From contig NZ_PIPQ01000001.1 of NCBI RefSeq assembly GCF_003987015.1, forward strand, positions 682,001 to 746,000: a stretch of 64,000 bases of DNA, written 5' to 3'. Both the position numbers and the translations under genes were made by a program. The notes under the pieces are model-generated. The model saw nothing but the letters and a program-made list of their open reading frames with translations, searched no databases and had not been told where the DNA came from. Source of the DNA: Aliidiomarina taiwanensis (GTDB taxonomy: Bacteria > Pseudomonadota > Gammaproteobacteria > Enterobacterales > Alteromonadaceae). Shown here piece after piece: positions 1-21,786 of the stretch (position 1 is the stretch's first letter; each line of letters opens with the position of its first letter).

Positions 1-468
1 GCGGTTCGGATCAGGTACCCGTGCTTCTGCCGTAAATTCAGCGCCATTAATAATGTCGCCTCGGTAGCTGGGTAGGCTCATATCGCCTATGGTTTCCAAG
101 TCGCTTGAACGAGGCTTGGCATACTGGCCGGCCATGCGGGCTACCTTGGTGACAGGGCATGAGCCTGCAAAGGTCAGTACAATGGCCATTTGCAAAATAA
201 CTTTGAAGGTGTCGCGTATTTTGGGTGCGGTAAAGTCTTGGAATGACTCTGCACAGTCGCCCCCTTGCAGTAAAAAGCCTTGCCCCTGACAGACCTGCGC
301 GAGGTTGGCTTCTAAGCTACGAATCTCCTCGGCAAACACCAGCGGTGGAAACGACTTTAGTTGGGCTTCAACTGCGGCTAGTTGGGCTTTATCAAGATAA
401 TCAGGTTGCTGTTGGGCTGGAAAATCACGCCAGCTACTTGTACTCCATGCTGGGTTATTTGAGGACAT
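1..468 (-). CDS. Class II DAHP synthase (3-deoxy-7-phosphoheptulonate synthase), N-terminal part
   Basis: Condenses phosphoenolpyruvate and erythrose 4-phosphate in the first step of the shikimate pathway. The gene starts with ATG at 466-468 and stays open for 156 codons to the left edge, so the 3' part lies outside the window. The visible protein opens [20 protein letters not shown] and carries the plant/class II hallmark QGGDCAESF near residues 68-76, then [15 protein letters not shown] and a GDIINGAEF stretch typical of the family (usually about 450 residues). A purine-rich stretch (AAGGTATAAG) precedes the ATG. It is unlike the E. coli AroF/G/H class I enzymes. The family call is secure; the feedback inhibitor (Tyr, Trp or Phe) cannot be read from this part. 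An open frame on the opposite strand here is a shadow. Confidence 0.93.
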
Positions 469-492
469 CTTATACCTTTATACGAACATCTG

Positions 493-516
493 AGAAAAGC
501 ACCTACCGAGTGGTGC
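493..516 (-). terminator. Possible short terminator or leader hairpin between the flavin-reductase gene and DAHP synthase
   Basis: On the minus strand GCACC and GGTGC form a 5-bp stem around an 8-base loop (499-516), followed by TTTTCT (493-498). It lies downstream of the flavin-reductase stop and 25 bases before the DAHP synthase ATG. It could end the htpX transcript or sit in the DAHP synthase leader. The stem is short, so the call is weak. Confidence 0.35.
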
Positions 517-570
517 AAAAGAGTACAAATAGTATCGGCTGGCTTATATAAACGCAACCGCTACAGGCGA

Positions 571-1209
571 CTATCGGGGCCTTGGTACGGACTTTATCGG
601 TCCTAAGCTGCCATATTCTCCAGCGCCGAGTCGGCTCAATGGATTTATGGCTTCTGCAGACACCTGAATGCGGGTTCTTTGCTGCCCTTGTTTGTCTGTA
701 AACTCAATACGCTCGGCGCAATGGTCCGCAATATAAATACACTCTACTTCTCCAAATACGAGGGTTTGCGAAGAGCCAGGTAACTGATACGTGCTATGTC
801 GCTTACAGCCGTAAGCAACAGGTGCCTCGGCTAACCGCGGCAAGGGGAACCCCTCAAAAGGTACTGTGGGCATATCAATGTTCGCAAGTTCCGACTCGGT
901 TGCTGGCAGCGTGCGCGATGTTTCTGTCACAGCTTCCGCTTGTTCAGCACTGGCAATATGCACGACAAAGTATGGTGAAGCTTGAATATTGGCCGCTGTG
1001 TCCTTGAGCTCCCCTGGTGACTTTTCATCCACAGAGAACATCAGCAGCGGCGGTTTACTTGAAACCGCCGTGAAGTAAGAGAATGGCGCTAGGTTCAAGT
1101 GCCCCTGTGTATGCTGAGAAAGCACCCAAGCAATGGGTCGGGGTACCAAGGTTTGGGTCATGGTATGGTACACCTGGTTCTTGCTCATACTGGCCAGTTC
1201 AATAATCAT
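571..1209 (-). CDS. Flavin reductase-like / FMN-binding split-barrel domain protein
   Basis: A 212-residue cytoplasmic protein resembling the flavin reductase-like (DIM6/NTAB) family, which binds FMN in a split barrel. Supporting stretches are the N-terminal [12 protein letters not shown], the [20 protein letters not shown] block (about residues 39-58) that lines the flavin site in relatives, and the late GAGEYGSLG. Electron donor and substrate are unknown. The ATG at 1207-1209 overlaps the htpX stop in an ATGA junction, so translation is probably coupled and this start is preferred to the inner Met8. The pairing with htpX does not itself suggest a shared function. Family call is good; the specific reaction is not assigned. 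Confidence 0.82.
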
Positions 1210-2096
1210 GAAAAGCGTCCTTGTTGCAGCGCCATAATGCGCTTTTCCAAAGGTGGGTGGGTTAAAAATAATTCACTGACTTGCTTCTTGCCACCTCGAA
1301 TACCAAAGGCTGCTAATGAGCCTTCTAGCTCCGACTCGTCCATACGCCCTTGCCCTAACCGTTGTAGGGCCGCGATCATTTTATTGGCTCCTACTAAGCG
1401 TGCAGCGCCGGCGTCGGCACGGTATTCGCGCTGACGGGAAAAATACATAACAATTATGCTGGCCAAGAAGCCAAACAAAATTTCAAAGGCCATGACCAAG
1501 CCAAAGTACAGAAAACCACCCTGCCCATGCTCTTCGTCTTGGTTGCTGCGCATCATGTTGTTTACTGCCCCAGCAATAATACGGGCTAAGAAAATAACAA
1601 AGGTGTTTACCACCCCTTGAATTAACGTCAAGGTAACCATGTCGCCATTGGCCACGTGGCTTACTTCATGGGCTAATACGGCTTCCACTTCGTCTCGGGT
1701 CATGGAGCGTAACAGTCCTGTAGACACAGCAACCAGCGAGTTGTCGCGGCTGGGGCCTGTGGCAAAGGCGTTGGGCTCGGGCGAGTTATAAATAGCCACT
1801 TCCGGCATTTTAATACCGGCCTGCTGCGCTTGGCGTGCCACAGTGTTCAATAGCCAGTGCTCTACTTCATTTTGCGGCTGGGTAATTACCTGCGCACCGG
1901 TTGAGCGCTTGGCCATCCACTTAGAAATAGCTAGGGAAAGAAATGAGCCACCAAAACCAAACACAGCAGCAAATAACAATAAGCCGGAGGTACTTCCAAA
2001 GTCGATGCCAAGCACCGCCATCAAAATATTCACAACCAGGCTAAACACAACCAAAATGGCAAGGTTGGTTGCTAGAAAAAGAATCGTACGTTTCAT
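1206..2096 (-). CDS. htpX: HtpX, inner-membrane zinc metalloprotease
   Basis: Membrane-bound M48 protease that degrades misfolded membrane proteins together with FtsH. The 296-residue protein (E. coli 293) has two N-terminal membrane helices (about 5-30 and 37-57), the zinc site HEVSH at 143-147, further membrane helices around 160-220, and a [10 protein letters not shown] stretch giving the third zinc ligand (Glu). The open frame extends nine codons further upstream, but [11 protein letters not shown] matches the family start, so the ATG at 2094-2096 is chosen. It is the first gene of a two-gene unit with the flavin-reductase gene (4-base overlap). In E. coli htpX responds to envelope stress through Cpx; no Cpx box was identified here. 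Confidence 0.96.
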
Positions 2097-2226
2097 AAGA
2101 ATGTGACCTATACAGCTAAACACAATACAACTGCTTCATAGATGGGGGCAGATGCCGTAAGTTCAATGTTTTACGTGTAAATGATAAGCTTCGCTTTCAC
2201 TTTTAGTAACGAAAGGACATGAACAC

Positions 2227-2925
2227 ATGCGTAACCTGCTGTTAATGAGTAGTTCTCGTGCAGACAACCCCGACTATTTGGCCCACGGTCTACCTTGGCT
2301 GAGCGAACATTTCGCTGGCAAACGGGTGCTGTTTATCCCTTATGCAGGCGTCACCATGAGCCATGAGACCTACACAGGCATGGTGCAAGAGGCGTTGGCT
2401 AAAGAGAACATTCAAGTAACAGGTATTCAGGACTATACCCAGCCTGCGGAAGCCATTGCCGAAGCCGAGGCAGTAGCCGTTGGCGGCGGGAATACCTATA
2501 TGCTGCTGCATACCCTTTACGAAACCGGCAGCCTTGACGTTTTAAAGCGTCGTATTCAAGAAGGCATGCCTTATGCGGGTTGGAGCGCAGGCTCGAACAT
2601 TGCAGGGCCAAGCATTCGCACCACCAACGATATGCCCATTATTCAGCCACGCTCCTTTAACGCTTTAAACGTGGTGCCTTTTCAGTTAAACCCTCACTTT
2701 ACCGACGCAATGCCAAAAGGTCACCGCGGTGAAACCCGCAGCCAACGCATTGCCGAGTTTATGGTGGTGGACAGCCACACGCCTGTGCTGGGAATTATGG
2801 AAGGCACAGCATTAAAAGTACAAGGCCAGCACATGCAGCTTCTCGGTGAGAAAGACGGGGTTGTGTTTGCTGACAACACCCGCCGCACCTTAAAAGCTGG
2901 CAGCACTATTTCACACTGGCTTTAA
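2227..2925 (+). CDS. pepE: Dipeptidase E (alpha-aspartyl dipeptidase)
   Basis: Cytoplasmic S51 serine peptidase that cleaves dipeptides with an N-terminal aspartate. The 232-residue protein matches the usual length (Salmonella 229). The nucleophile lies in GWSAGSN (Ser120), and Asp135 (RTTND) and His157 (QLNPHF) complete the Ser-Asp-His set at the same numbers reported for Salmonella PepE. An AAAGGA ribosome site at 2212-2217 sits nine bases before the ATG. The gene stands alone, divergent from htpX, and converges on bioD with only four bases between the stops. It fits the peptide-utilising theme of the window. Confidence 0.95.
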   Translation: MRNLLLMSSSRADNPDYLAHGLPWLSEHFAGKRVLFIPYAGVTMSHETYTGMVQEALAKENIQVTGIQDYTQPAEAIAEAEAVAVGGGNTYMLLHTLYETGSLDVLKRRIQEGMPYAGWSAGSNIAGPSIRTTNDMPIIQPRSFNALNVVPFQLNPHFTDAMPKGHRGETRSQRIAEFMVVDSHTPVLGIMEGTALKVQGQHMQLLGEKDGVVFADNTRRTLKAGSTISHWL

Positions 2926-2929
2926 TGTG

Positions 2930-3625
2930 TTAATTTTGCAGCAGCTGCGCCCCAAACTGGGCATGCTGCTGCAACCACTGTTGCCTTTCTTGTTCCGTCG
3001 CCATAAACGGCACTTCCGCTAACATGGGTACAGGTAAAGCATGCTGTAGGTAAGCCAAGTTCGCGGCATACTCTGCCATAGGTGTTGGCTCGGGTGAGTT
3101 AGCAACCCAGCCCAAACAACGCAGCCCACGCGCTTGTATGTCTTGCCAAGTAAGTAACGCATGGTTTAAACAACCGAGCCGCATGCCCACCACCAAGACC
3201 ACAGGTAGTTGGTTTAAACACACCCAGTCGGCTAGGGTTTCTTTTGCATTTAAAGGCAGCAGCCAGCCGCCAGCGCCTTCAATCACGAGATGATCCATCT
3301 GCTTTGGCAATGCTTCGAAGTGTTCTTGCACCAACTGCACCGACAAGGGAAGCTGCGCATACTGAGCCGCTATATGCGGCGCTATAGGCTGTGGTAAAGC
3401 AATAGGATTAACACTGGCATACCCCCACTGGCTGGTGCTGGCACTTTGCAATAGTAAGGCGTCTTCATTCACCCATTGGCCTTGCCCATTTTGTTCGCAG
3501 CCAGCCGCAATGGGTTTCCAACCATGGTTCACCGCCGTGTATGGCAGCGTGGACAAAATCAGTTCCGCCACCTGGCTTTTCCCAATTTCAGTGTCCGTGC
3601 CTGTCACAAAAACTCGCTGGGTCAT
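2930..3625 (-). CDS. bioD: Dethiobiotin synthetase BioD
   Basis: ATP-dependent ring closure of 7,8-diaminononanoate with CO2 to dethiobiotin, the penultimate biotin step. The 231-residue protein opens MTQRVFVTGTDTEIGKS, with the P-loop at residues 9-17, and has the substrate-binding VIEGAGGWLLPL block near the middle. The frame is open for 23 further codons upstream, but those overlap the reading frame of the bioC tail and do not resemble BioD, so the ATG at 3623-3625 is used. It is the last gene of bioBFCD; the true end of the bioC frame (3633) is seven bases before this start, a normal operon spacing. Confidence 0.95.
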   Translation of the reverse strand: MTQRVFVTGTDTEIGKSQVAELILSTLPYTAVNHGWKPIAAGCEQNGQGQWVNEDALLLQSASTSQWGYASVNPIALPQPIAPHIAAQYAQLPLSVQLVQEHFEALPKQMDHLVIEGAGGWLLPLNAKETLADWVCLNQLPVVLVVGMRLGCLNHALLTWQDIQARGLRCLGWVANSPEPTPMAEYAANLAYLQHALPVPMLAEVPFMATEQERQQWLQQHAQFGAQLLQN

Positions 3626-3632
3626 AAACACC

Positions 3633-3755
3633 TCATGTATATGCTTGGATGAATGCAAGGTGATAAGTAAGAGGTATGCCCTGCTCTTGCTCAAAAGCAG
3701 CGAGGGCTTGGTGGACTTGGCGTAACCAATGGGGAGTCCGCAAGCCCCGCGACTA
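3633..3755 (-). pseudogene. bioC: C-terminal coding remnant of bioC beyond an in-frame amber codon
   Basis: Reading the bioC frame through the TAG at 3753-3755 gives about 39 more residues, beginning SRGLRTPHWLRQ and including EQEQGIPLTYHLAF, and ends at TGA 3633-3635. This resembles the normal BioC C-terminus, where a GLTSP-like motif is followed by a helix and then LTY plus a hydrophobic strand. No frameshift is needed. With the tail the protein would be about 264 residues, close to the usual 250-260. The simplest reading is a sense codon (for example CAG) changed to TAG, or a sequencing error. Confidence 0.8.
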
Positions 3756-4427
3756 AGAACACTGCAGTACGCGGCTTGCGCCTATAGCCTTCATACTGCG
3801 TAATAAGTTGGCTGCAGAATCATGGTGGGTGGTAATTTGGGTTTGCTCTACAAGCACCTGTTGAAAGCCGGCTTGTTGCAAGGCCTGTTGCCACTGGGCA
3901 GCCCTTGGGTAACGGTTCACACGGGTTAGCAGCCCTAGTTGCTGCAAATGCTTTAATTCGACTAAGCTGCCTTGAATTAAGGTGGACACATGAATACGCC
4001 CACCGGGCTTGCACACCCGAAATAACTCTGCGGCCACCTGTTCTGGCTGCGGACACCACTGCAAAGCCAAATTAGAAAACACCAAGTCTGTTACGCTATT
4101 GGGCAGCGGTAATGCCTGAGCATCGCCTACTAGCCAGTGTGTCCCTGCAGGCATACCATAGCGCTTGCGGGCTTGCCCTATCATGGCGGGTGACAGGTCT
4201 ACGCCGAGGTAATTTTTGCTTAACGTATGTAGTTTTGGCCAATGCACCCCCGAGCCACATCCCAAATCGAGGAGTTGCTTAGCAGGCTGCTTGTGCGCAG
4301 CCAGAGTCTGCTGCAGTAATAATTGGGCGGCTTGCTGTTGCAGGGTGGCCGTGTTTGCGCCATAACAAAGCGTCTGATATTTGGCCGCAGCCCGGTTAAA
4401 TGCTTGCTGTACATGCACCTCGCTCAT
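3753..4427 (-). CDS. bioC: Malonyl-ACP O-methyltransferase BioC, ending early at an amber codon
   Basis: SAM-dependent methyltransferase that methylates the free carboxyl of malonyl-ACP so the fatty-acid machinery can build pimeloyl-ACP methyl ester, the biotin precursor. The 224 residues contain the SAM loop LLDLGCGSGVHWP, the acidic VDLSPAMIGQARKRYG and the DLVFSNLALQW motif, so the methyltransferase core is intact. The C-terminus stops at TAG inside the conserved LLRSMKAIGA region; the matching tail continues in frame to 3633. The ATG overlaps the bioF stop by four bases. Whether the shortened protein works is unknown. No bioH or other pimeloyl-ACP esterase gene was recognised in the window. 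Confidence 0.88.
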   Translation of the reverse strand: MSEVHVQQAFNRAAAKYQTLCYGANTATLQQQAAQLLLQQTLAAHKQPAKQLLDLGCGSGVHWPKLHTLSKNYLGVDLSPAMIGQARKRYGMPAGTHWLVGDAQALPLPNSVTDLVFSNLALQWCPQPEQVAAELFRVCKPGGRIHVSTLIQGSLVELKHLQQLGLLTRVNRYPRAAQWQQALQQAGFQQVLVEQTQITTHHDSAANLLRSMKAIGASRVLQCS

Positions 4428-5644
4428 TGCGTCTCCTCAACCCACGGGGCACTTTGCTGCTGTAACGCTTGGTGCAATGCTTGCACCGTTTGTTGAATGG
4501 ACTGGGGAGTTTGCTGCAAGCTGATGGTAAAACGCACGCGAGCTTTCCCTTGCGGCACCGTTGGTGGCCGAATGGCTACTGCGGTTATGCCTTGTTGCTG
4601 CAATTGCTGGCTTAAACGCAACGCCTTGTCTGCTGAACCAAGCACACAAGGTAAAATAGCACTTACAGGCCCCTGTTCAGGTAACAGTAAAGGAATGCCG
4701 AGCTGCGTTGCTTCCTGTTGAAACAGCTTGACCTGAGTTGCTAACTGTTGCTGCAACGCCAAAGACTCGTCTTGAACAAGTTCAATGGCAGCCAGTACCG
4801 CACAGGCTTGTGCAGCCGGCATAGCGGTACTGTAAATGTATTCCCCGGCTGTTTGTACCAAGTATTCAATAAAAGCCTTATCACCCGCCACAAAAGCGCC
4901 CTGGCAGCCCAAAGCTTTACCAAAGGTGGCCGTAAGCAGGTCAATGTGAGACATATAGCTTGCGGGGACTGAACCACGCCCTGCTTGCCCACGCGCCCCT
5001 AACCCATGAGCGTCATCAACAAACAACAAAGTGTTGCGGCCGTGCTTTTTCTGATCTGCTTTTAGCGCAATGAAGTCAGCTAAAGGAGCGCTGTCCCCGT
5101 CCATGCTAAATAAACCTTCGGTAACTAAGACGCCGGGGGTCGAATGGGGGAGCGTGTTAAGTTGTTTGCGAGCATGCTCTACGTGGTTGTGGTGAAAACG
5201 CAATAAGCGCTGACCTTGTGCTGCGCCCGACAAGGCCCCCGCATACAAAGACGCGTGGCTTAATCGGTCTAGCGCTGGCACAGCCCCTAGTTGCGTCAGC
5301 GCTTTCATACAGGCTTGGTTGGCGGCGTAGCCGGAATTGAATAACAACACGGACTCGACCCCTAGCCAAGCGCACAGCGCTTCTTCTAGCGCTTGATGCG
5401 GCCCTTGGTAACCCGTTGTTAATGGGCTGCCGCCCGAGCCAGCACCCCACACTTCTAACCCTTGTTGAAAGGCTTGGATCACCTTTGGATGGGTGCTTAA
5501 AGCCAAATAGTCATTACTCGAAAAATTAAAGGCCCGGGTACCCATAGCGGTCACCTGACGGCTCCGCCATAGCGCCTTTTCTTTACGCGCTTGTTGAAAC
5601 GCTTTTAGTTGTTGTTGCAGCCCCATGGCGTTAAGGTGCGGCAT
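4424..5644 (-). CDS. bioF: 8-amino-7-oxononanoate synthase BioF
   Basis: PLP enzyme that joins pimeloyl-ACP (or CoA) with alanine to form 8-amino-7-oxononanoate. The 406-residue protein has [12 protein letters not shown] near residues 39-50, DRLSHASL (126-133), the PLP-contacting VDDAHGLG (209-216) and the Schiff-base lysine in TFGKALG (Lys243). It is a little longer than E. coli BioF (384). The first ATG lies inside the end of bioB (14-base overlap) with no clear ribosome site; Met7 ([10 protein letters not shown]), just after the bioB stop, is an equally good start. Second gene of bioBFCD. Confidence 0.95.
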
Positions 5645-6668
5645 TGTAAAACAGAGGTTCAGGGGCTAAGGCTTGATGCGCTTGGTCCACAGCCGTGGCC
5701 TCCTGTTCAAGCTGTTGCTGGTGCACTGAGCGCTGCTCCGGCACTATGCCAAGGCGAGCAAAGAGCTGCTGGTCGGCTTCCGCTTCCGGGTTGTCTGTGG
5801 TGAGAAGTTTTTCACCATAAAATATGGAGTTGGCCCCAGCAAAGAAACAGAGGGCTTGTAACTCGTCGCTCATGGCTTCACGCCCTGCCGACAAACGCAC
5901 ATGCGAGGTGGGCATTAATATACGTGCCACGGCAATGGTCCGCACAAACTCAAACGGGTCAAGATCGTCCAAGTCTGCCATGGGGGTGCCAGGTACTTTC
6001 ACCAGCATGTTAATGGGCACGCTTTCCGGTGGTTGTTCCATGTTCGCCAGTTGTTGGAGTAGACCCACACGATCCTTCGCCTGCTCGCCCATACCAACAA
6101 TACCACCCGAGCAGACTTTCATGCCGGCACTGCGCACATTTTCAATGGTATTGAGCCTGTCTGCATAAGTGCGCGTCGTAATAATATCGCCGTAATATTC
6201 TGGTGAGGTGTCTAAATTATGGTTGTAGTAGTCTAAGCCTGCTTCAGCTAAGGCTTGCGCTTTTTCACCGTTGAGCATGCCCAAGGTCATACAGGTTTCT
6301 AAGCCTAATTCGCGTACGCCTTGTATCATGGCCTGAAGCTTTGGCATGTCGCGATCTTTCGGATCGCGCCACGCGGCCCCCATGCAGAAGCGCGTCGCAC
6401 CCGTCGACTTAGCCCGCTCGGCTTGCTTTAACACCTGTTGCACTTCCATTAACTGCTCCTTTTCTAGCCCCGTGTCGTACCGGGCACTTTGTGGGCAGTA
6501 TTTACAGTCTTCAGGGCAAGCTCCGGTTTTAATCGAAAGCAAGGTGGAAACCTGCACTTCGTTCGGCTTAAAATGTGCGCGGTGAACGGTTTGAGCTTGA
6601 AAAAGTAAATCGTTAAATGGGAGCTCAAATAAAGCCTGTATTTGCTCCCGTTTCCATGCAGTGGTCAT
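5631..6668 (-). CDS. bioB: Biotin synthase BioB
   Basis: Radical SAM enzyme that inserts sulfur into dethiobiotin, the final step of biotin synthesis. The 345-residue protein (E. coli 346) has the radical-SAM CPEDCKYC at residues 51-58 binding the 4Fe-4S cluster, preceded by [12 protein letters not shown], and the later GGIVGMGE motif. The frame extends 21 codons upstream, but [17 protein letters not shown] aligns with the family start and is preceded by AGGAA at good spacing, so ATG 6666-6668 is used. First gene of the leftward bioBFCD operon, divergent from bioA across a short region with a BirA-like operator. Confidence 0.97.
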
Positions 6669-6714
6669 ACTGGTTCCTATCGCCATGAATTTACTCGATA
6701 AGAATAACTGCACA

Positions 6715-6754
6715 AGGTAAACTGTCAACAAACCAAAAGAAAAGTAGTTTACCT
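6715..6754. promoter_or_regulatory. Candidate BirA operator between bioB and bioA
   Basis: The known BirA site is an inverted repeat of GTAAAC and GTTTAC half-sites about 17-18 bases apart. Here GTTTAC (6747-6752) abuts the bioA start. Two left partners exist: GTCAAC (6724-6729), one mismatch at the canonical 17-base spacing, and a perfect match AGGTAAACT (6715-6723) that forms a 9-bp inverted repeat with AGTTTACCT (6746-6754) at wider spacing. BirA with biotinyl-AMP would repress both directions. The location is the classical one; which pairing is used is inferred. Confidence 0.72.
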
Positions 6755-8050
6755 ATGATTGAATTTCAAACAGTACAAGATGGCTTGGCCTTTGACGCCC
6801 GGCATATTTGGCACCCCTATACGTCGCTCCGTAACCCGCTACCTACCTACCCTGTGGTGTCTGCGACGGGCACCAAATTAACCCTAGCGGACGGCACCGA
6901 ATTAGTGGATGGTATGGCCTCTTGGTGGTCGGCCATTCATGGGTATAACCACCCGCGGCTAAACCAAGCGTTAGTTGATCAAGCCAGTCAAATGAGCCAT
7001 GTCATGTTTGGCGGCATCACCCACCCTCCCGCGGTGCAACTGGCGCGGCAGCTGCTGGCCATGGCACCGGAAGGGCTTGACGCCGTATTCTTCGCTGACT
7101 CGGGCTCGGTTGCGGTGGAAGTCGCCATAAAAATGGCTCTGCAATACCAAACCAGCCGCGGCAAACCCGAGAAAAGCCGGTTGCTCACCATTCGTCAGGG
7201 ATACCATGGCGACACCTTTGCGGCCATGGCCGTTTGCGACCCGGTGAATGGCATGCACGGCTTGTTTCAAAGTGTGTTACCACACCACCTGTTTGCTCCA
7301 GCGCCGCAGCTAAAACCCGAGGACACCTGGCAAGACGTGGAGCTTGACGCCTTTGAGAGTTTGCTTGCTGCGCATCACCAGGAATTAGCAGCCATTATTC
7401 TTGAGCCTATTGTACAAGGCGCAGGCGGTATGCGCTTTTATCACCCAGGCTTCTTGGCGGGCGCCCGTCGTCTTGCCGACGCCTACGACGTGTTGCTGAT
7501 TGCCGATGAAATAGCCACTGGATTTGGTCGTACGGGGCGTTTGTTTGCCTGTGAGCATGCCAATATCAGCCCTGATATACTGTGTGTCGGGAAGGCGCTC
7601 ACGGGTGGTTACATGACGTTAGCCGCCACCTTAGCCAGCCGGCATGTGGCAGACACCATAGGTCAAGGTGAAGCCAGTGTGCTCATGCACGGACCGACTT
7701 TTATGGCCAACCCACTTGCTTGTGCCGTAGCCTGCGAAAGTTTAGCCATGGTTGCTGAAGGTCACTGGCAGCAAGATGTACCACGCATTGAAGCCCAATT
7801 GAAACGAGAGCTCGCGCCTTGCAGGGCGTATGAACAAGTGGCCGACGTGCGCGTGTTCGGTGCAATTGGTGTCGTGGAAATGAAAACGCCCATTGATGTA
7901 GCGAAAGCGCAAGCCTTCTTGGTAAAACAAGGGGTTTGGATACGTCCCTTCGGGACCTTGCTGTATATCATGCCGCCTTATATTGCGACGGAACAAGATA
8001 TTCAGCAGTTAACGCAGGCAATCGCGGCTTTTTGCCAACATTTTGCTTGA
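6755..8050 (+). CDS. bioA: Adenosylmethionine-8-amino-7-oxononanoate aminotransferase BioA
   Basis: PLP aminotransferase that uses SAM as amino donor to make 7,8-diaminononanoate. The 431-residue protein (E. coli 429) begins near HIWHPYTSL (18-26), has GMASWWSAIHGYNHP (53-67), the PLP-aspartate region LIADEIATGFGRTG (248-261) and the Schiff-base lysine in VGKALTGGYM (Lys280). WWSAIHG and HPYTS are diagnostic of BioA among class III aminotransferases. The ATG directly follows the right half of the BirA-like inverted repeat, so repressor binding would block initiation. Transcribed divergently from bioBFCD. Confidence 0.96.
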   Translation: MIEFQTVQDGLAFDARHIWHPYTSLRNPLPTYPVVSATGTKLTLADGTELVDGMASWWSAIHGYNHPRLNQALVDQASQMSHVMFGGITHPPAVQLARQLLAMAPEGLDAVFFADSGSVAVEVAIKMALQYQTSRGKPEKSRLLTIRQGYHGDTFAAMAVCDPVNGMHGLFQSVLPHHLFAPAPQLKPEDTWQDVELDAFESLLAAHHQELAAIILEPIVQGAGGMRFYHPGFLAGARRLADAYDVLLIADEIATGFGRTGRLFACEHANISPDILCVGKALTGGYMTLAATLASRHVADTIGQGEASVLMHGPTFMANPLACAVACESLAMVAEGHWQQDVPRIEAQLKRELAPCRAYEQVADVRVFGAIGVVEMKTPIDVAKAQAFLVKQGVWIRPFGTLLYIMPPYIATEQDIQQLTQAIAAFCQHFA

Positions 8051-8110
8051 GTATCATGGCGAGCAAGGTAACATAACAATCCATTTTTAACATGCAGTTG
8101 GAGAACATCA

Positions 8111-9511
8111 ATGACCTTTGCAGTTGTCAAAGACATTTTGGCAGGAAAACATGCTGTGGGTGACACAGTTGTGCTACGTGGCTGGGTGCGCACTCGGCGC
8201 GACTCGAAAGCTGGCTTTTCCTTTATAAATTTGCACGACGGCTCGTGCTTTGACGCTGTGCAGGCTGTCGTTCCTAATTCGCTAGAAAATTACAGCTCTG
8301 AAGTACAAAAACTAACCACCAGCTGCTCTGTGTCTGTCACAGCGACTGTGGTGGAGTCTCAGGGCAAAGGCCAAGAGTTTGAGCTCCAAGTCAGTGCGTT
8401 GGAAGTACTTGGCTGGGTAGAAGATCCGGAAACTTACCCCATGGCCCCAAAACGCCACAGCATGGAGTATTTACGCGAATATGCGCATTTACGTCCGCGC
8501 ACGAACATTACCGGTGCTGTAACGCGTGTACGCCACACCCTGGCGCAAGCCTTACACCGTTTTTTCCATGAGAATAACTTCTTCTGGGTAAGCACCCCCA
8601 TTATTACCACCAGTGACGCCGAAGGCGCGGGTGAATTGTTCCGGGTTTCTACCTTGGACATGACCAACCTGCCGCTGACCGACAAAGGCCAAGTGGATTA
8701 CAACGAAGACTTCTTCGGCAAAGAAGCTTTCTTAACCGTGTCCGGCCAGCTGAATGCGGAAGCTTATGCTTGCGCTCTATCGAAAGTGTACACCTTTGGC
8801 CCTACTTTCCGTGCCGAAAACTCCAACACCAGCCGCCACCTTGCGGAGTTCTGGATGGTTGAGCCTGAAGTAGCCTTTGCTGACTTAGACGATATTGCCA
8901 AGCTGTCTGAAGACATGCTGAAGTATGTGTTCAAAGCGGTACTGGAAGAGCGTGCTGACGACATGGCATTTTTTGCCCAGCGTGTAGACAAAGACGCCAT
9001 TACCCGCCTCGAGCACATGATTTCAAACGACTTCGTGCACATGGACTACACGGACGCCATTGATATTCTGTTAAAGAGCGGCAAAGAGTTTAAATACCCG
9101 GTGGCATGGGGTGTTGATCTGCAGTCTGAGCATGAGCGTTATCTCGCTGAAGAGCATGTAGGCGCACCTGTTATTTTGAAAAACTACCCGAGGGACATTA
9201 AAGCCTTCTATATGCGCCAAAACGAAGACGGCAAAACCGTTGCGGCCATGGACGTATTAGCCCCAGGTATTGGTGAAATTATTGGTGGTAGTGCCCGTGA
9301 AGAACGCTTAGACCTGCTTGACAAGCGCATTGACGAAATGGGCTTACCGAAAGAAGAGTACAGCTGGTACCGCGACTTACGCCGTTATGGCACAGTCCCT
9401 CACGCCGGTTTTGGCTTAGGTTTCGAGCGTTTAGTGTCGTATGTAACGGGTATGTCGAACATTCGCGACGTTATCCCCTTCCCGCGTGCACCCCATAGCG
9501 CCGACTTCTAA
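8111..9511 (+). CDS. asnS: Asparaginyl-tRNA synthetase
   Basis: Class IIb aminoacyl-tRNA synthetase charging tRNA-Asn in the cytoplasm. The 466 residues equal the E. coli length. An N-terminal OB-fold ([20 protein letters not shown], about 22-41) binds the anticodon; class II motif 2 is seen around [20 protein letters not shown], and motif 3 is [15 protein letters not shown] near the C-terminus. The ATG follows a GGAG site (8100-8103). It lies about 60 bases after bioA on the same strand and ends at a strong palindromic terminator. Confidence 0.97.
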
Positions 9512-9541
9512 AAACGCTGTAAAACCATAAACAGTAAGAAT

Positions 9542-9571
9542 AAAAAACCCCAACCTAGGTTGGGGTTTTTT
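9542..9571. terminator. Bidirectional terminator between asnS and the S9 peptidase gene
   Basis: A perfect 30-base palindrome: six A, then CCCCAACCT, its complement, then six T. The A- and T-runs give a U-tract on either strand, so it can end both asnS and the convergent peptidase gene. Confidence 0.92.
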
Positions 9572-9585
9572 CGTACCGACGAACA

Positions 9586-12093
9586 TTATTTCTTCAGGTT
9601 TTCTTCAAACAACTTATGAATTTTCCGGAACTCATTTAACCAGCTGGAAGGCTGCACGAAACCGTGCGGCTCCACTGGGAAAATAGCCGTTTCGAAGTTT
9701 TCTTTTTCCAGCTCAATAAAGCGCTGCACAATACGCACTGTGTCTTGGAAGAAGACGTTGTCGTCTACCATAGGCGCATTGATCAGCAAGGCGTCTTCCA
9801 GGCCGTCGGCGAAGTAAATAGGCGAACTTCGACGGTAAGCAATGGCGTCGTCCTGAGGCAGGTTCAAAATATTCGACGTGTAGCCTGTATTGTAGTGCGC
9901 CCAGTCTGTCACCGGCCGTAAAGCGGCACCCGCTTGGAATAGGCCTGGCTCTTTGAACAGGGCCATAAAGGTTAAGAAACCACCGTAAGAGCCGCCATAA
10001 GTACCTACACGCTCTGTGTCCACATGACGGTGCTCGCCCATCCAGTTCACCACGTCTACTAGGTCTTCAACCTCGGGTGTACCCATTTGACGATAAATCG
10101 CTGTGCGCCAGTCGCGGCCATAACCTGCTGAGCCACGGTAGTCGAGGTCTAGCACCACGTACCCTTGTTCTACCAGTAAGTTGTGGTACATGAATTCGCG
10201 GAAATAGTTCGACCAACCAGCGTGGGCATTTTGCAGGTAGCCCGCACCGTGAATAAACACCACGGCTGGATACTTTTCCGCTGCGTTTGCGTCGTACCCT
10301 TCAGGTAAGTACACCCGGCTGTAAATGGGGTGGTCGCCATGGCTCGACGGCACCGCCACTATTTCAGGCGCTGTCCACGGCATGGCAGCAAACTGCTCCG
10401 ACACGGTATAGGTTATGCGGTTGGCTGTTGCGCCTGCCCGGTTTTCTTGCACATAAAGTTCGGTTGGCTGCAGTGCATTTGAATGAGACAAAAGCAGCTG
10501 CGACTCGTCTGGGCTTAGCACAAACGACGTCATACCGCCCAAATCGGTTAATTGCTGCACTTCACCACCATCAACAGACACCCGATACACTTCATACACA
10601 CCCGGGTGGGTTTTATTGCCTTGGAAATAGAAGTTTTCGCCGGCATTGTCTAATACCACTTGCTGTACTTGGTACGCGCCCGAGGTCAGCTGCTGAGTAC
10701 GGCCCTTATTGCCTAAGTCGCGCACATATAAATGCCCATAACCGCTTTCTTCTGAGGTATACCACAGCTTATTACTGTTCGGTAACCACCCCATGTCGTT
10801 GAAATGACGGTTAATCCAGGCGTCATCGTGCAAACGGTGCTGGTTCACTAACGTCTTTTCAGCAAAGTCTATGGTGGCTATCCAGCGGTCTTTGTTGTCC
10901 CAAGCGCGTAGCATCACAGCAACACCCCTGCCGTCTGCTTGCCAAGCTATATTGCCTTGTCCTGCAGCCCAGTTAGGGAGTACGCCAATGGCGCGCGGCT
11001 TTCGCTCGCTGGTATAGGTTTCACCACGGGCTGCGTAGTTTTCTTCACGCACCTCACGCAACACGTCCTCGTCAAACCCTGGCAGGCTTTCATAGCTCAG
11101 TGCGTGCTTTTCACCAGTGACAATGTCGAGAAGAAATAGCTCATGACTAACGGGCTTTGCGTCGGCCACACGGCGCCGCACGTTTTGCATCTCGATACGA
11201 CCTGACTCGGTAACAAAACGCGGCATGAGGTCACCCTCACCGCGCCATCCTTGCGGTTTGGAAATCGCCACGATCAGCTTGTCTGCTGTGGGCGAAAGGC
11301 TAGCTGCGACAACCTGCTGACCTTTGCCTAAGTAAAATGGCTTGGGTGCTGTGGCCGGGTTTTCTGTTTGCACTGCGCTTTTGTAGTCGTGTCGTTGCTG
11401 GCGCTGACGGCGTTGAACTTGGTTGTACAGCATTAAGTCAACTTCTTCTTTCGCCAGGTAGTCACTGGGTGCTTGTACTGGCTCTGGCGCATCGGAGGTC
11501 GCCAAACTCGCCACCAACTGTGTACGTCCGGTTTGGGCGTCCATAGCATAGAAGTCGTTACCTTGACGGTAGCTTAATCGACCGTCGGCTAAAAACTGCA
11601 AGCTACTGCGGTTGGCATTGTCTTGCGTTAGCTGAGAGATTGCGCCTGTCGCTAAGTCCACTGCGAATATATTGCGTTCAAAAATATAAGCCGCACGGGT
11701 ACGGTCCGCGTTATAAACTCGGGAGTTTGTGGCTTCGTGATGCAATGCACTTAAGGCCACTTCACTCACATGAGGCTGACCATTTTCAAATGCAACACGC
11801 TGTAAAGTGCGCACTGGACTGCCTTCTTGTTTCTGCTGGAACAATACCTGTTTGCCGTCCAGTGACCAAAACGGACGCTCTGGGCTACGGCCTATCCAGT
11901 CTGGATCGGCCATAATTTGTTCCATGGTAAAGGCTGGGGCATCAACAGCTGCTGGTGCACGTTCAACTGCCGTGGCAGTTTGCAGTGAAGCTGCTGGCAC
12001 CACACTGGCCGTCGACTGTGCCGTATTGTCTGTCATCGCACAGGACGTGCTAAACAGGGCAGCAGAAATAGCTAACACAAGTGTTTTCTTCAT
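9586..12093 (-). CDS. Exported S9 family peptidase (dipeptidyl-peptidase IV / prolyl oligopeptidase type)
   Basis: An 835-residue serine peptidase predicted to be exported. The N-terminus MKKTLVLAISAALFSTSCA is a Sec signal; the Cys near residue 19 could be lipidated, but the box (S-T-S before Cys) is atypical. A long beta-propeller-like region with repeated TolB/DPP-IV-type strands follows. The C-terminal alpha/beta hydrolase domain has the nucleophile in GGSYGG (Ser702), Asp777 in APMVDDNV and His810 in EPHGF, plus the RGSAGYGRDWR signature. Probably trims proline-containing or other oligopeptides outside the cytoplasm. Monocistronic, with terminators on both sides. The exact specificity (DPP-IV or acylaminoacyl peptidase) is not resolved. 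Confidence 0.9.
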   Translation of the reverse strand: MKKTLVLAISAALFSTSCAMTDNTAQSTASVVPAASLQTATAVERAPAAVDAPAFTMEQIMADPDWIGRSPERPFWSLDGKQVLFQQKQEGSPVRTLQRVAFENGQPHVSEVALSALHHEATNSRVYNADRTRAAYIFERNIFAVDLATGAISQLTQDNANRSSLQFLADGRLSYRQGNDFYAMDAQTGRTQLVASLATSDAPEPVQAPSDYLAKEEVDLMLYNQVQRRQRQQRHDYKSAVQTENPATAPKPFYLGKGQQVVAASLSPTADKLIVAISKPQGWRGEGDLMPRFVTESGRIEMQNVRRRVADAKPVSHELFLLDIVTGEKHALSYESLPGFDEDVLREVREENYAARGETYTSERKPRAIGVLPNWAAGQGNIAWQADGRGVAVMLRAWDNKDRWIATIDFAEKTLVNQHRLHDDAWINRHFNDMGWLPNSNKLWYTSEESGYGHLYVRDLGNKGRTQQLTSGAYQVQQVVLDNAGENFYFQGNKTHPGVYEVYRVSVDGGEVQQLTDLGGMTSFVLSPDESQLLLSHSNALQPTELYVQENRAGATANRITYTVSEQFAAMPWTAPEIVAVPSSHGDHPIYSRVYLPEGYDANAAEKYPAVVFIHGAGYLQNAHAGWSNYFREFMYHNLLVEQGYVVLDLDYRGSAGYGRDWRTAIYRQMGTPEVEDLVDVVNWMGEHRHVDTERVGTYGGSYGGFLTFMALFKEPGLFQAGAALRPVTDWAHYNTGYTSNILNLPQDDAIAYRRSSPIYFADGLEDALLINAPMVDDNVFFQDTVRIVQRFIELEKENFETAIFPVEPHGFVQPSSWLNEFRKIHKLFEENLKK

Positions 12094-20418: not shown

Positions 20419-20850
20419 CTACAACTGGTTAATTTCTTGTCGCAAGCGGTATTGAGAGGAAGTAACACAACGTTCCATATCACATACTTTCCCTTCCAGT
20501 GTATGAAACTCTTGCACTAAGTCTTTCAAGGCCTCTTTCGGTGTTTTCCCTGCTTCCCACACCCGAGTTTTCACCTCGATGGTGCGGCCGTCAGAGGCCT
20601 GCTCAAAACGTGTTTCTTCTCGATAACCTTGGTGCTCACTCATATGCTCGAGCATGGCAGGCTTTTTGTCTAACACCAACCAAGCGGCAATATAAACAAC
20701 AAAAGTTAAAGAAAAGGCAAAAATAAGCGTGGTAACAAATAAAATGCGTACGGCCCACACTTCCCAGCCAAAATAGTCGGCAATACCCGCACAAACTCCG
20801 GCTACCTTCCCTTCTCTATGGTTTCGGTATAAACGCTTTTTAGCAGCCAT
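20419..20850 (-). CDS. pspC: Phage shock protein C
   Basis: Inner-membrane protein that with PspB senses envelope damage (secretin mislocalisation, loss of proton-motive force) and releases PspF from PspA. The 143-residue protein has the PspC domain LYRNHREGKVAGVCAGIADY (about 8-27), a membrane helix around 35-60 and a longer cytoplasmic C-terminal region than E. coli PspC (119). Two start codons are adjacent (GTG-ATG); the ATG is preferred because AGGAGG lies five bases before it. Last gene of pspABC. There is no pspD or pspE here. Confidence 0.93.
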   Translation of the reverse strand: MAAKKRLYRNHREGKVAGVCAGIADYFGWEVWAVRILFVTTLIFAFSLTFVVYIAAWLVLDKKPAMLEHMSEHQGYREETRFEQASDGRTIEVKTRVWEAGKTPKEALKDLVQEFHTLEGKVCDMERCVTSSQYRLRQEINQL

Positions 20851-20859
20851 CACTGCCTC

Positions 20860-21099
20860 CTAGTTGTATTTTTTCCAGTCCGGGTGCTCTTGGTCAAGAA
20901 TACGTTCAAGAGCATGTACCCGCTGCTTTAATTTATCCGCCTTATCGACTAACTCACGGAACTGTAAGGTTTCATTTTCGCTTAAGCCTTGATTCAGCTT
21001 ATGCTTACTGCGGTAATGCAGCACCAACCAAATGGGTGCCACAATCAGCATGAAAATAATAACGGGAACGATAAGCAATATAATAACGGCCGTGTCCAT
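20860..21099 (-). CDS. pspB: Phage shock protein B
   Basis: Small inner-membrane partner of PspC. The 79-residue protein (E. coli 74) has an N-terminal membrane helix (about 4-28), then LHYRSKHK and a coiled-coil stretch (about 45-70) with the ERILDQEHPDWKK ending characteristic of PspB. It starts 12 bases after pspA and ends nine bases before pspC. Confidence 0.94.
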   Translation of the reverse strand: MDTAVIILLIVPVIIFMLIVAPIWLVLHYRSKHKLNQGLSENETLQFRELVDKADKLKQRVHALERILDQEHPDWKKYN

Positions 21100-21111
21100 G
21101 GTTGTTACCCC

Positions 21112-21786
21112 TTATGCTTTCGGCTCTGCTTTATCACCTACACGTGCTTTTAAGGCCTCAAGCTCGGCTTCAATTTTAGATTCATTCTCCAACTCACGAA
21201 ACTCGTCAGCTAAAGAGCGTTTGCCTAAGTCATAAGCGTCTACCTGCGACTCGAGCCCGTCAATTTTAGCTTCATAACGGTCAAATTTCTGCAATGCTTC
21301 GTCAACTTTGGAGTTGTCGAGACTACGTTTCACGTTTAAGCGTGAGCTAACGGTCCGTTCGCGCATTAAAATAGCTTGCTGGCGTGCTTTCGCGTCGCTT
21401 AGCTTTTCTTGCAACTGCGTTATTTCGTCGGACAAGCGATCAACCTGCTCGTCGGTACGGGCAATTTCAGCAAGCAAAGCGTCAACTGTGTCTTGTACCT
21501 TGGCCTTTTCGACTAAAGCTGAACGGGCCAGGTCCTCACGCTCTTTGCTTAAAGCTAAACTAGCGCGGCTTTCCCATTCGGCAACCTCGTCTTCCATGCG
21601 GTTTAGTTGACGTGTTAGCTCTTTCTTTTCGGCTAACGTGCGAGCTGCACCCGAGCGCACTTCCACCAAGGTGTCTTCCATTTCTTGAATAATCAAGCGC
21701 ACCATTTTTTGTGGGTTTTCTGCTTTATCAAGTAAAGCGTTTAGGTTTGCATTAACGATGTCTGAAAATCGTGAAAAAATACTCAT
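21112..21786 (-). CDS. pspA: Phage shock protein A
   Basis: Peripheral inner-membrane protein of the PspA/IM30 (ESCRT-III-like) family. It stabilises damaged membranes and, when free, inhibits the PspF activator. The 224-residue protein (E. coli 222) opens MSIFSRFSDIVNANLNALLD, with the amphipathic helix in the first 20 residues, and is almost entirely coiled coil, with NPQKMVRLIIQEMEDTLVEV near 25-44. It follows a sigma-54 promoter and is the first gene of pspABC, divergent from pspF. Confidence 0.97.
   Translation of the reverse strand: MSIFSRFSDIVNANLNALLDKAENPQKMVRLIIQEMEDTLVEVRSGAARTLAEKKELTRQLNRMEDEVAEWESRASLALSKEREDLARSALVEKAKVQDTVDALLAEIARTDEQVDRLSDEITQLQEKLSDAKARQQAILMRERTVSSRLNVKRSLDNSKVDEALQKFDRYEAKIDGLESQVDAYDLGKRSLADEFRELENESKIEAELEALKARVGDKAEPKA

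Follow-up and report, generated by a model that had tools for sequence, protein, structure and literature searches.

In Aliidiomarina taiwanensis the biotin synthesis gene bioC is interrupted by a single in-frame TAG codon, and this codon lies between two short inverted repeats that were overlooked in an earlier, sequence-only reading of the same DNA. The best explanation for the broken gene is a recent micro-inversion between these repeats, brought about by template switching, which we consider somewhat better than an even chance; it is ranked above a point nonsense mutation, which is followed by a sequence or assembly error. The likelihoods given to the explanations are a judgement on the weighed evidence and were not computed. 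We infer that the present orientation of the segment is the derived one, that template switching was the mechanism, that BioC activity has been lost and that the strain needs biotin from outside.

The bioC locus and the biotin operon

The window analysed here (the whole stretch of 64,000 nucleotides) belongs to a 2.53-Mb draft genome of 29 contigs with a completeness of 99.97% and a contamination of 0.31%; the site is located on a 929-kb contig. The bioC frame starts with ATG at 4427-4425 on the minus strand, comprises 224 sense codons, the TAG, 39 further sense codons and a TGA at 3633-3635, and is separated by seven bases from bioD, whose ATG reads from 3625. Including the TAG as codon 225, the read-through frame has 264 codons. 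The sequence-only reading had placed the stop, the approximately 39 residues behind it and the distance to bioD at exactly these coordinates. It had also described the remainder of the operon as intact, and indeed the frames of bioA, bioB, bioF and bioD are all open (Table 1). The same applies to bioH, which was found in the genome above its cut-off (242.4 bits). Its location in a biotin operon shared with bioF and bioD agrees with bioC; its product is not full-length, due to the TAG at codon 225. A gene of peptidase family S51 (2227-2925) is convergent with bioD. An Rfam search of positions 1-12000 of the window gave zero matches at gathering score.

Table 1 Features of the bioC region (positions of the window; arms in gene sense)
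Feature	Position	Strand	Remarks
bioD, intact	2930..3625	-	TIGR00347, 155.7 bits (cut-off 83.3)
bioC, interrupted (malonyl-ACP O-methyltransferase)	3633..4427	-	224 codons + 39 codons
Frame past the stop, assigned as genuine BioC C-terminus (39 codons; last helix and last beta-strand)	3636..3752	-	
Right inverted-repeat arm, GGCTTGCG	3739..3746	-	Codons of G-L-R motif
26-bp spacer holding the TAG, proposed to be inverted	3747..3772	-	Opposite orientation open in frame
In-frame TAG, codon 225 of bioC	3753..3755	-	
Left inverted-repeat arm, CGCAAGCC	3773..3780	-	Codons of conserved I-G-A-S motif
bioF, intact open frame	4424..5644	-	Best family TIGR00858 bioF, 363.7 bits, profile 12-365/365, below cut-off (426.45)
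bioB, intact	5631..6668	-	TIGR00433, 427.8 bits (cut-off 225)
bioA, intact, divergent	6755..8050	+	NF005940, 709.2 bits (cut-off 625)

The frame behind the stop codon

The NCBIfam model for BioC (TIGR02072) matches the truncated product over positions 1-205 (157.8 bits) and the read-through frame over positions 1-242 of 244 (182.0 bits). A genome-wide search for the BioC family returned the bioC site, with one TAG inside the match, as top match. Since the model match lengthens with the 39 residues and the genome search spans the TAG, these residues are the genuine C-terminus of BioC, in agreement with the sequence-only reading. No second BioC was found by this family search elsewhere in the genome, the runner-up match reaching only 53.6 bits. 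The score of the read-through frame is below the TIGR02072 cut-off of 184.95; this cut-off is uninformative in the clade, because the unbroken BioC proteins of two relatives score far lower (L010, 145.3 bits; L011, 144.6 bits). L010 and L011 are the two nearest relatives, and BioC of this clade could escape the NCBIfam cut-off rule.

An AlphaFold2 model with Gln at the stop position, based on 30 sequences, has a mean pLDDT of 93. It contains a helix at residues 232-245 and a strand at residues 250-263, both predicted with confidence and both behind the stop; the linker block at residues 221-230 has a mean pLDDT of only 56. When this model was compared with solved structures by Foldseek, the six best rows were chains of AbBioC (8x8i/8x8j), with E values of 3.6e-20 to 2.8e-18 and TM scores by query of 0.69-0.71. 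Within the lost tail, G250 and P252 are conserved in about 90% of 29 homologues. The SAM-binding methyltransferase domain (Methyltransf_11, 83.4 bits) is complete ahead of the stop.

TAG is the stop of 7 other ORFs among the 54 long ORFs of the window. The 47 tRNAs detected in the draft do not include one with a CUA anticodon; this set is incomplete and, for example, lacks tRNA-Ile (gat). A coding-signal scan of the window's stops was uninformative: the bioC stop came ninth of 283, and the signal of its tail was near zero (-0.08). The in-frame-stop scan flagged three adjacent minus-strand ORFs sharing one frame at 20419-21786; they appear to be separate genes and presumably form a phage-shock cluster.

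bioC in related genomes

Among the genomes compared, bioC is broken within the genus in the source genome only. The BioC proteins of relatives, to which the sequence-only reading had looked for comparison, are open past the TAG position in all 16 other genomes of the genus, so the lesion is present in 1 of 17. In a search of 37 relatives the 29 loci that were read all pass the stop position (L036 from a partial frame), and one relative was unmatched. In a set of 109 BioC homologues, in which two assemblies are counted twice, the conserved IGA motif was located by script in 100; nine were missed by the motif search, and in at least one (L067) the motif was misplaced. All 100 have at least 41 residues beyond the motif. 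The truncated BioC of the window ends 6 residues beyond it.

The nearest relative with respect to BioC is Aliidiomarina quisquiliarum Y-6, with a protein identity of 57-60% (57% over the read-through frame), followed by an Idiomarina MAG with 44-51%; the identities from the genus set are 60% over the first 219 residues (G014) and 51% (G003). The linkers of these two nearest relatives differ from that of the window, and the inverted repeat is absent from both. With a best identity of 57-60%, no compared relative is close enough to display the ancestral orientation of the spacer. A contig scan using the truncated BioC as query confirmed no relative, and a DNA search of the 17 genus genomes matched the source genome itself plus 105 bases in one relative and nothing else. 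In a Methylovulum MAG (L096, 6001-6774) the stretch matching BioC has one in-frame stop in single-frame translation, which may represent a further example of a broken BioC, a change of frame inside the match or an error of the MAG.

An inverted repeat around the stop codon

The two arms, located in the codons of the IGAS and GLR motifs, flank a variable loop of BioC. They are perfect over 8 bp and reach 11 nt if one mismatch is allowed. Apart from its own sub-arms, this is the only pair of perfect repeats enclosing the TAG (arms of at least 6, spacer 3-120). Flipping the spacer removes every stop from bioC and changes 18 of its 26 positions: the observed loop reads IGAS-RVLQCS-stop-SR-GLRTPHWL, the flipped one IGAS-PATKNTAVR-GLRTPHWL. 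Folding of the 42-nt single strand yielded -12.2 kcal/mol with a z score of -3.28, and 1 of 200 shuffles folded equally well. With a gap of 12-40, the repeat pair was found in the genome just once, and a mobile or repeated element was rejected on these grounds. In none of the other 16 genus genomes does bioC contain the exact repeat pattern, which is present at two other sites in one of these genomes (G006).

The window's ORFs with 150 codons or more (54 ORFs, 19,048 codons) served as a control for chance. With arms of at least 8 and a spacer of up to 26, 118 of the 19,048 codons (0.62%) are located inside such a spacer, and 0.37% are in one that is also open when flipped. If the spacer may extend to 40, the values rise to 237 codons (1.24%) and 0.93%. 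Inverted-repeat pairs with arms of at least 8 and a spacer of 3-40 were counted 55 times in the 54 ORFs. The limits of this control were picked after the repeat had been seen, and therefore the true surprise is somewhat smaller. Random 26-bp inversions in the same phase are open anyway in 76% of the cases.

Resemblance of both orientations to BioC linkers

For comparison with a wide set of linkers, 98 linkers from 107 sequences (nine were missed by the motif search) were scored at seven positions by a model fitted to these 98 linkers themselves; the mis-located L067 was excluded from a recheck with 97 linkers. By composition the flipped linker reached +1.9 bits and the observed linker -5.4 to -7.0 bits, depending on the residue assumed for the stop. 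The position-specific scores were -1.5 and -7.0 to -9.3, respectively. With Gln at the stop the observed linker ranks under all 98, and the flipped linker falls on percentiles 28 and 8. Of random open inversions, 9.7% score as well as the flipped linker by composition and 12.4% by position. A single Cys, which contributes -5.1 bits to the score of the observed linker, accounts for much of the contrast in composition: the 97 linkers, 679 residues in all, contain no Cys, and the gap shrinks to about 2 bits when this residue is left out.

Measured against 29 nearer relatives, composition gave +3.6 bits for the flipped and -2.7 bits for the observed linker, and the flipped linker scores above random coding peptides in 99.7% and above random open inversions in 96.6% of the cases. 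When the spacers were compared locally, as DNA, with the linker of the nearest relative, the flipped spacer scored 8, which is reached by 5% of 1500 random inversions, and the observed spacer 4 (96%); for the second relative the values were 7 (12%) and 6 (29%). A full-length profile HMM of the 29 relatives did not separate the two orientations (271.9 bits flipped, 271.4-272.4 bits observed with any residue at the stop). Two compensating frameshifts were considered as well and rejected, because linkers translated in either of the two remaining frames reached only 268.3 bits. Taken together, the flip receives modest support: three of the comparisons favour the flipped linker, and the profile of the whole protein is neutral.

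Origin of the stop codon

In the proposed micro-inversion the two 8-bp arms in the IGAS and GLR codons would pair as a hairpin, with the intervening 26 bp being copied or rejoined in reverse, most likely by template switching of the polymerase during replication. Such a flip would have preserved length and frame, altered the loop codons and brought TAG into the loop. Translation would then halt with 224 of the 264 codons read, leaving the methyltransferase without its last helix and strand. The same route could flip the spacer back, making the event reversible in principle. A perfect inverted repeat around the changed segment, as expected for a spacer inversion by template switching, is found here (8-bp arms, 26-bp spacer).

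Template switching at short inverted repeats can flip spacers within genes, and back, in Saccharomyces cerevisiae (PMC8604942), and a related quasipalindrome switching is described for lacZ of Escherichia coli (PMC7202029). The bioC case would resemble the yeast spacer inversions in its intragenic inverted repeat, the turned spacer, the kept length and frame and the reversibility in principle. In the ten yeast cases of PMC8604942 the arms measure 10-16 bp and the spacers 2-5 bp, and the outcome was amino-acid replacements; bioC differs from them by its 8-bp arms, its 26-bp spacer and a stop codon, and by an ancestral orientation that is deduced rather than seen. With the arms of the yeast cases being longer than 9 bp and their spacers only 2-5 bp long, bioC would thus stand at the short-arm, long-spacer end.

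Compared with the micro-inversion, a single-base nonsense mutation that produced TAG in a loop codon, inside a coincidental inverted repeat, appears possible but clearly less likely. Point mutations are the most common source of nonsense codons, and nonsense pseudogenes of biosynthetic genes are a familiar kind of lesion, which bioC resembles in that one stop is the sole defect of its gene and operon. Unlike an ordinary nonsense pseudogene, however, it carries this stop inside a flip-competent inverted repeat. Such repeat pairs are not rare in the ORFs of the window, and the arms, sitting in motif codons, could stem from codon choice; nevertheless, a setting with an open opposite orientation applies to just 0.4-0.9% of codons. 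The equal profile scores of both linkers are compatible with a point mutation, whereas R-V-L-Q-C-S, the linker observed, is unusual for BioC and scores under all 98 compared. The sequence-only reading had correctly noted a single nonsense codon without a frameshift, but the absent frameshift alone does not indicate a base change, because an inversion keeps length and frame, too. It had also proposed a very recent mutation. A recent loss of BioC is indeed supported, since the frame is preserved behind the stop, all 16 genus relatives read past this point and the other pathway genes have open frames. As to the cause of this loss, a simple nonsense mutation is less well supported than the flip, given the inverted repeats around the TAG and their spacer, which is open when flipped.

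An error in the sequence or assembly, be it a miscalled base or a flip caused by the hairpin during library preparation or assembly, would mean that the gene is really intact. The intact remainder of frame and operon and the restriction of the lesion to one of 17 genus genomes would agree with this, and polymerases are prone to errors at strong hairpins in vitro as well. The quality of the draft (99.97% complete, 0.31% contamination) and the 929-kb contig carrying the site speak against it only indirectly; we regard such an error as possible but rather unlikely.

As a special form of the micro-inversion, and as a small part of the likelihood assigned to it, the segment could be a reversible ON/OFF inverton with biotin-prototrophic (open) and biotin-auxotrophic (TAG) cells, of which the OFF form was assembled; we consider this improbable. 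In this case a very short hairpin would drive the switching without a dedicated invertase. An inverton driven by an invertase is less likely because of the 8-nt arms, the single-copy pair, its absence from bioC of 16 relatives and a recombinase located elsewhere: the sole match to the Resolvase family (serine recombinases, the class covered by the search) in the genome is on another contig, unlinked to the site (G000:C28:11839-12240, within L182), and this piece has no NCBIfam match at 1e-20. Chanin et al. reportedly described intragenic invertons in Nature in 2024, one of them in thiC, likewise a vitamin gene. The study of Chanin et al. is cited in PMC11868660, PMC11892184, PMC12632263 and PMC13343947, and in PMC11892184 the inverted repeats of invertons are given as 10-40 nt. 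With intragenic invertons the bioC site shares a short in-gene segment between inverted repeats that is open in one orientation and prematurely stopped in the other; it differs from them in the single orientation present in the assembly, the lack of a known invertase site and perfect arms shorter than 10-40 nt.

A functional truncated BioC, or read-through of the TAG, with normal biotin synthesis in either case, is very improbable: the methyltransferase domain is complete and the frame downstream of the TAG is preserved, but a confidently predicted helix and strand with the conserved G250 and P252 are lost, all 100 motif-located homologues continue for at least 41 residues and none ends at this position, and read-through or recoding finds no support, as a CUA tRNA is missing from the 47 found in the incomplete set and TAG is in normal use as a stop. 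The tolerated truncation and the read-through offered in the sequence-only reading are thus not upheld.

Consequences for biotin synthesis

Lacking the final helix and strand of the predicted fold, the truncated BioC is probably inactive. Pimeloyl-ACP is synthesized via the BioC-BioH route, and from what is established on this pathway the route should fail in the sequenced strain. The strain should therefore need biotin or a late precursor from outside, unless the gene reverts. The biotin transporter BioY was not found in the genome in a search confined to this transporter. Judging by titles and the beginnings of abstracts, the papers listed for Aliidiomarina and biotin looked unrelated, and a search for C-terminal truncation of BioC gave nothing useful.

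The kind of damage is ordinary and known; its special point may be the loss of a vitamin gene by a step that can possibly be reverted. If the micro-inversion is right, a vitamin gene was lost in one step that kept length and frame, by means of a hairpin set across a protein loop by codon choice, and the rate at which this loss reverts may differ from that of a point mutation. Pseudogenes with a single nonsense codon should then be checked for flanking inverted repeats before they are called point mutations. If the improbable inverton were true, a vitamin pathway would be subject to phase variation in a marine gammaproteobacterium, and switching between cells that make biotin and cells that need it would be relevant to the origin of auxotrophy in marine communities.
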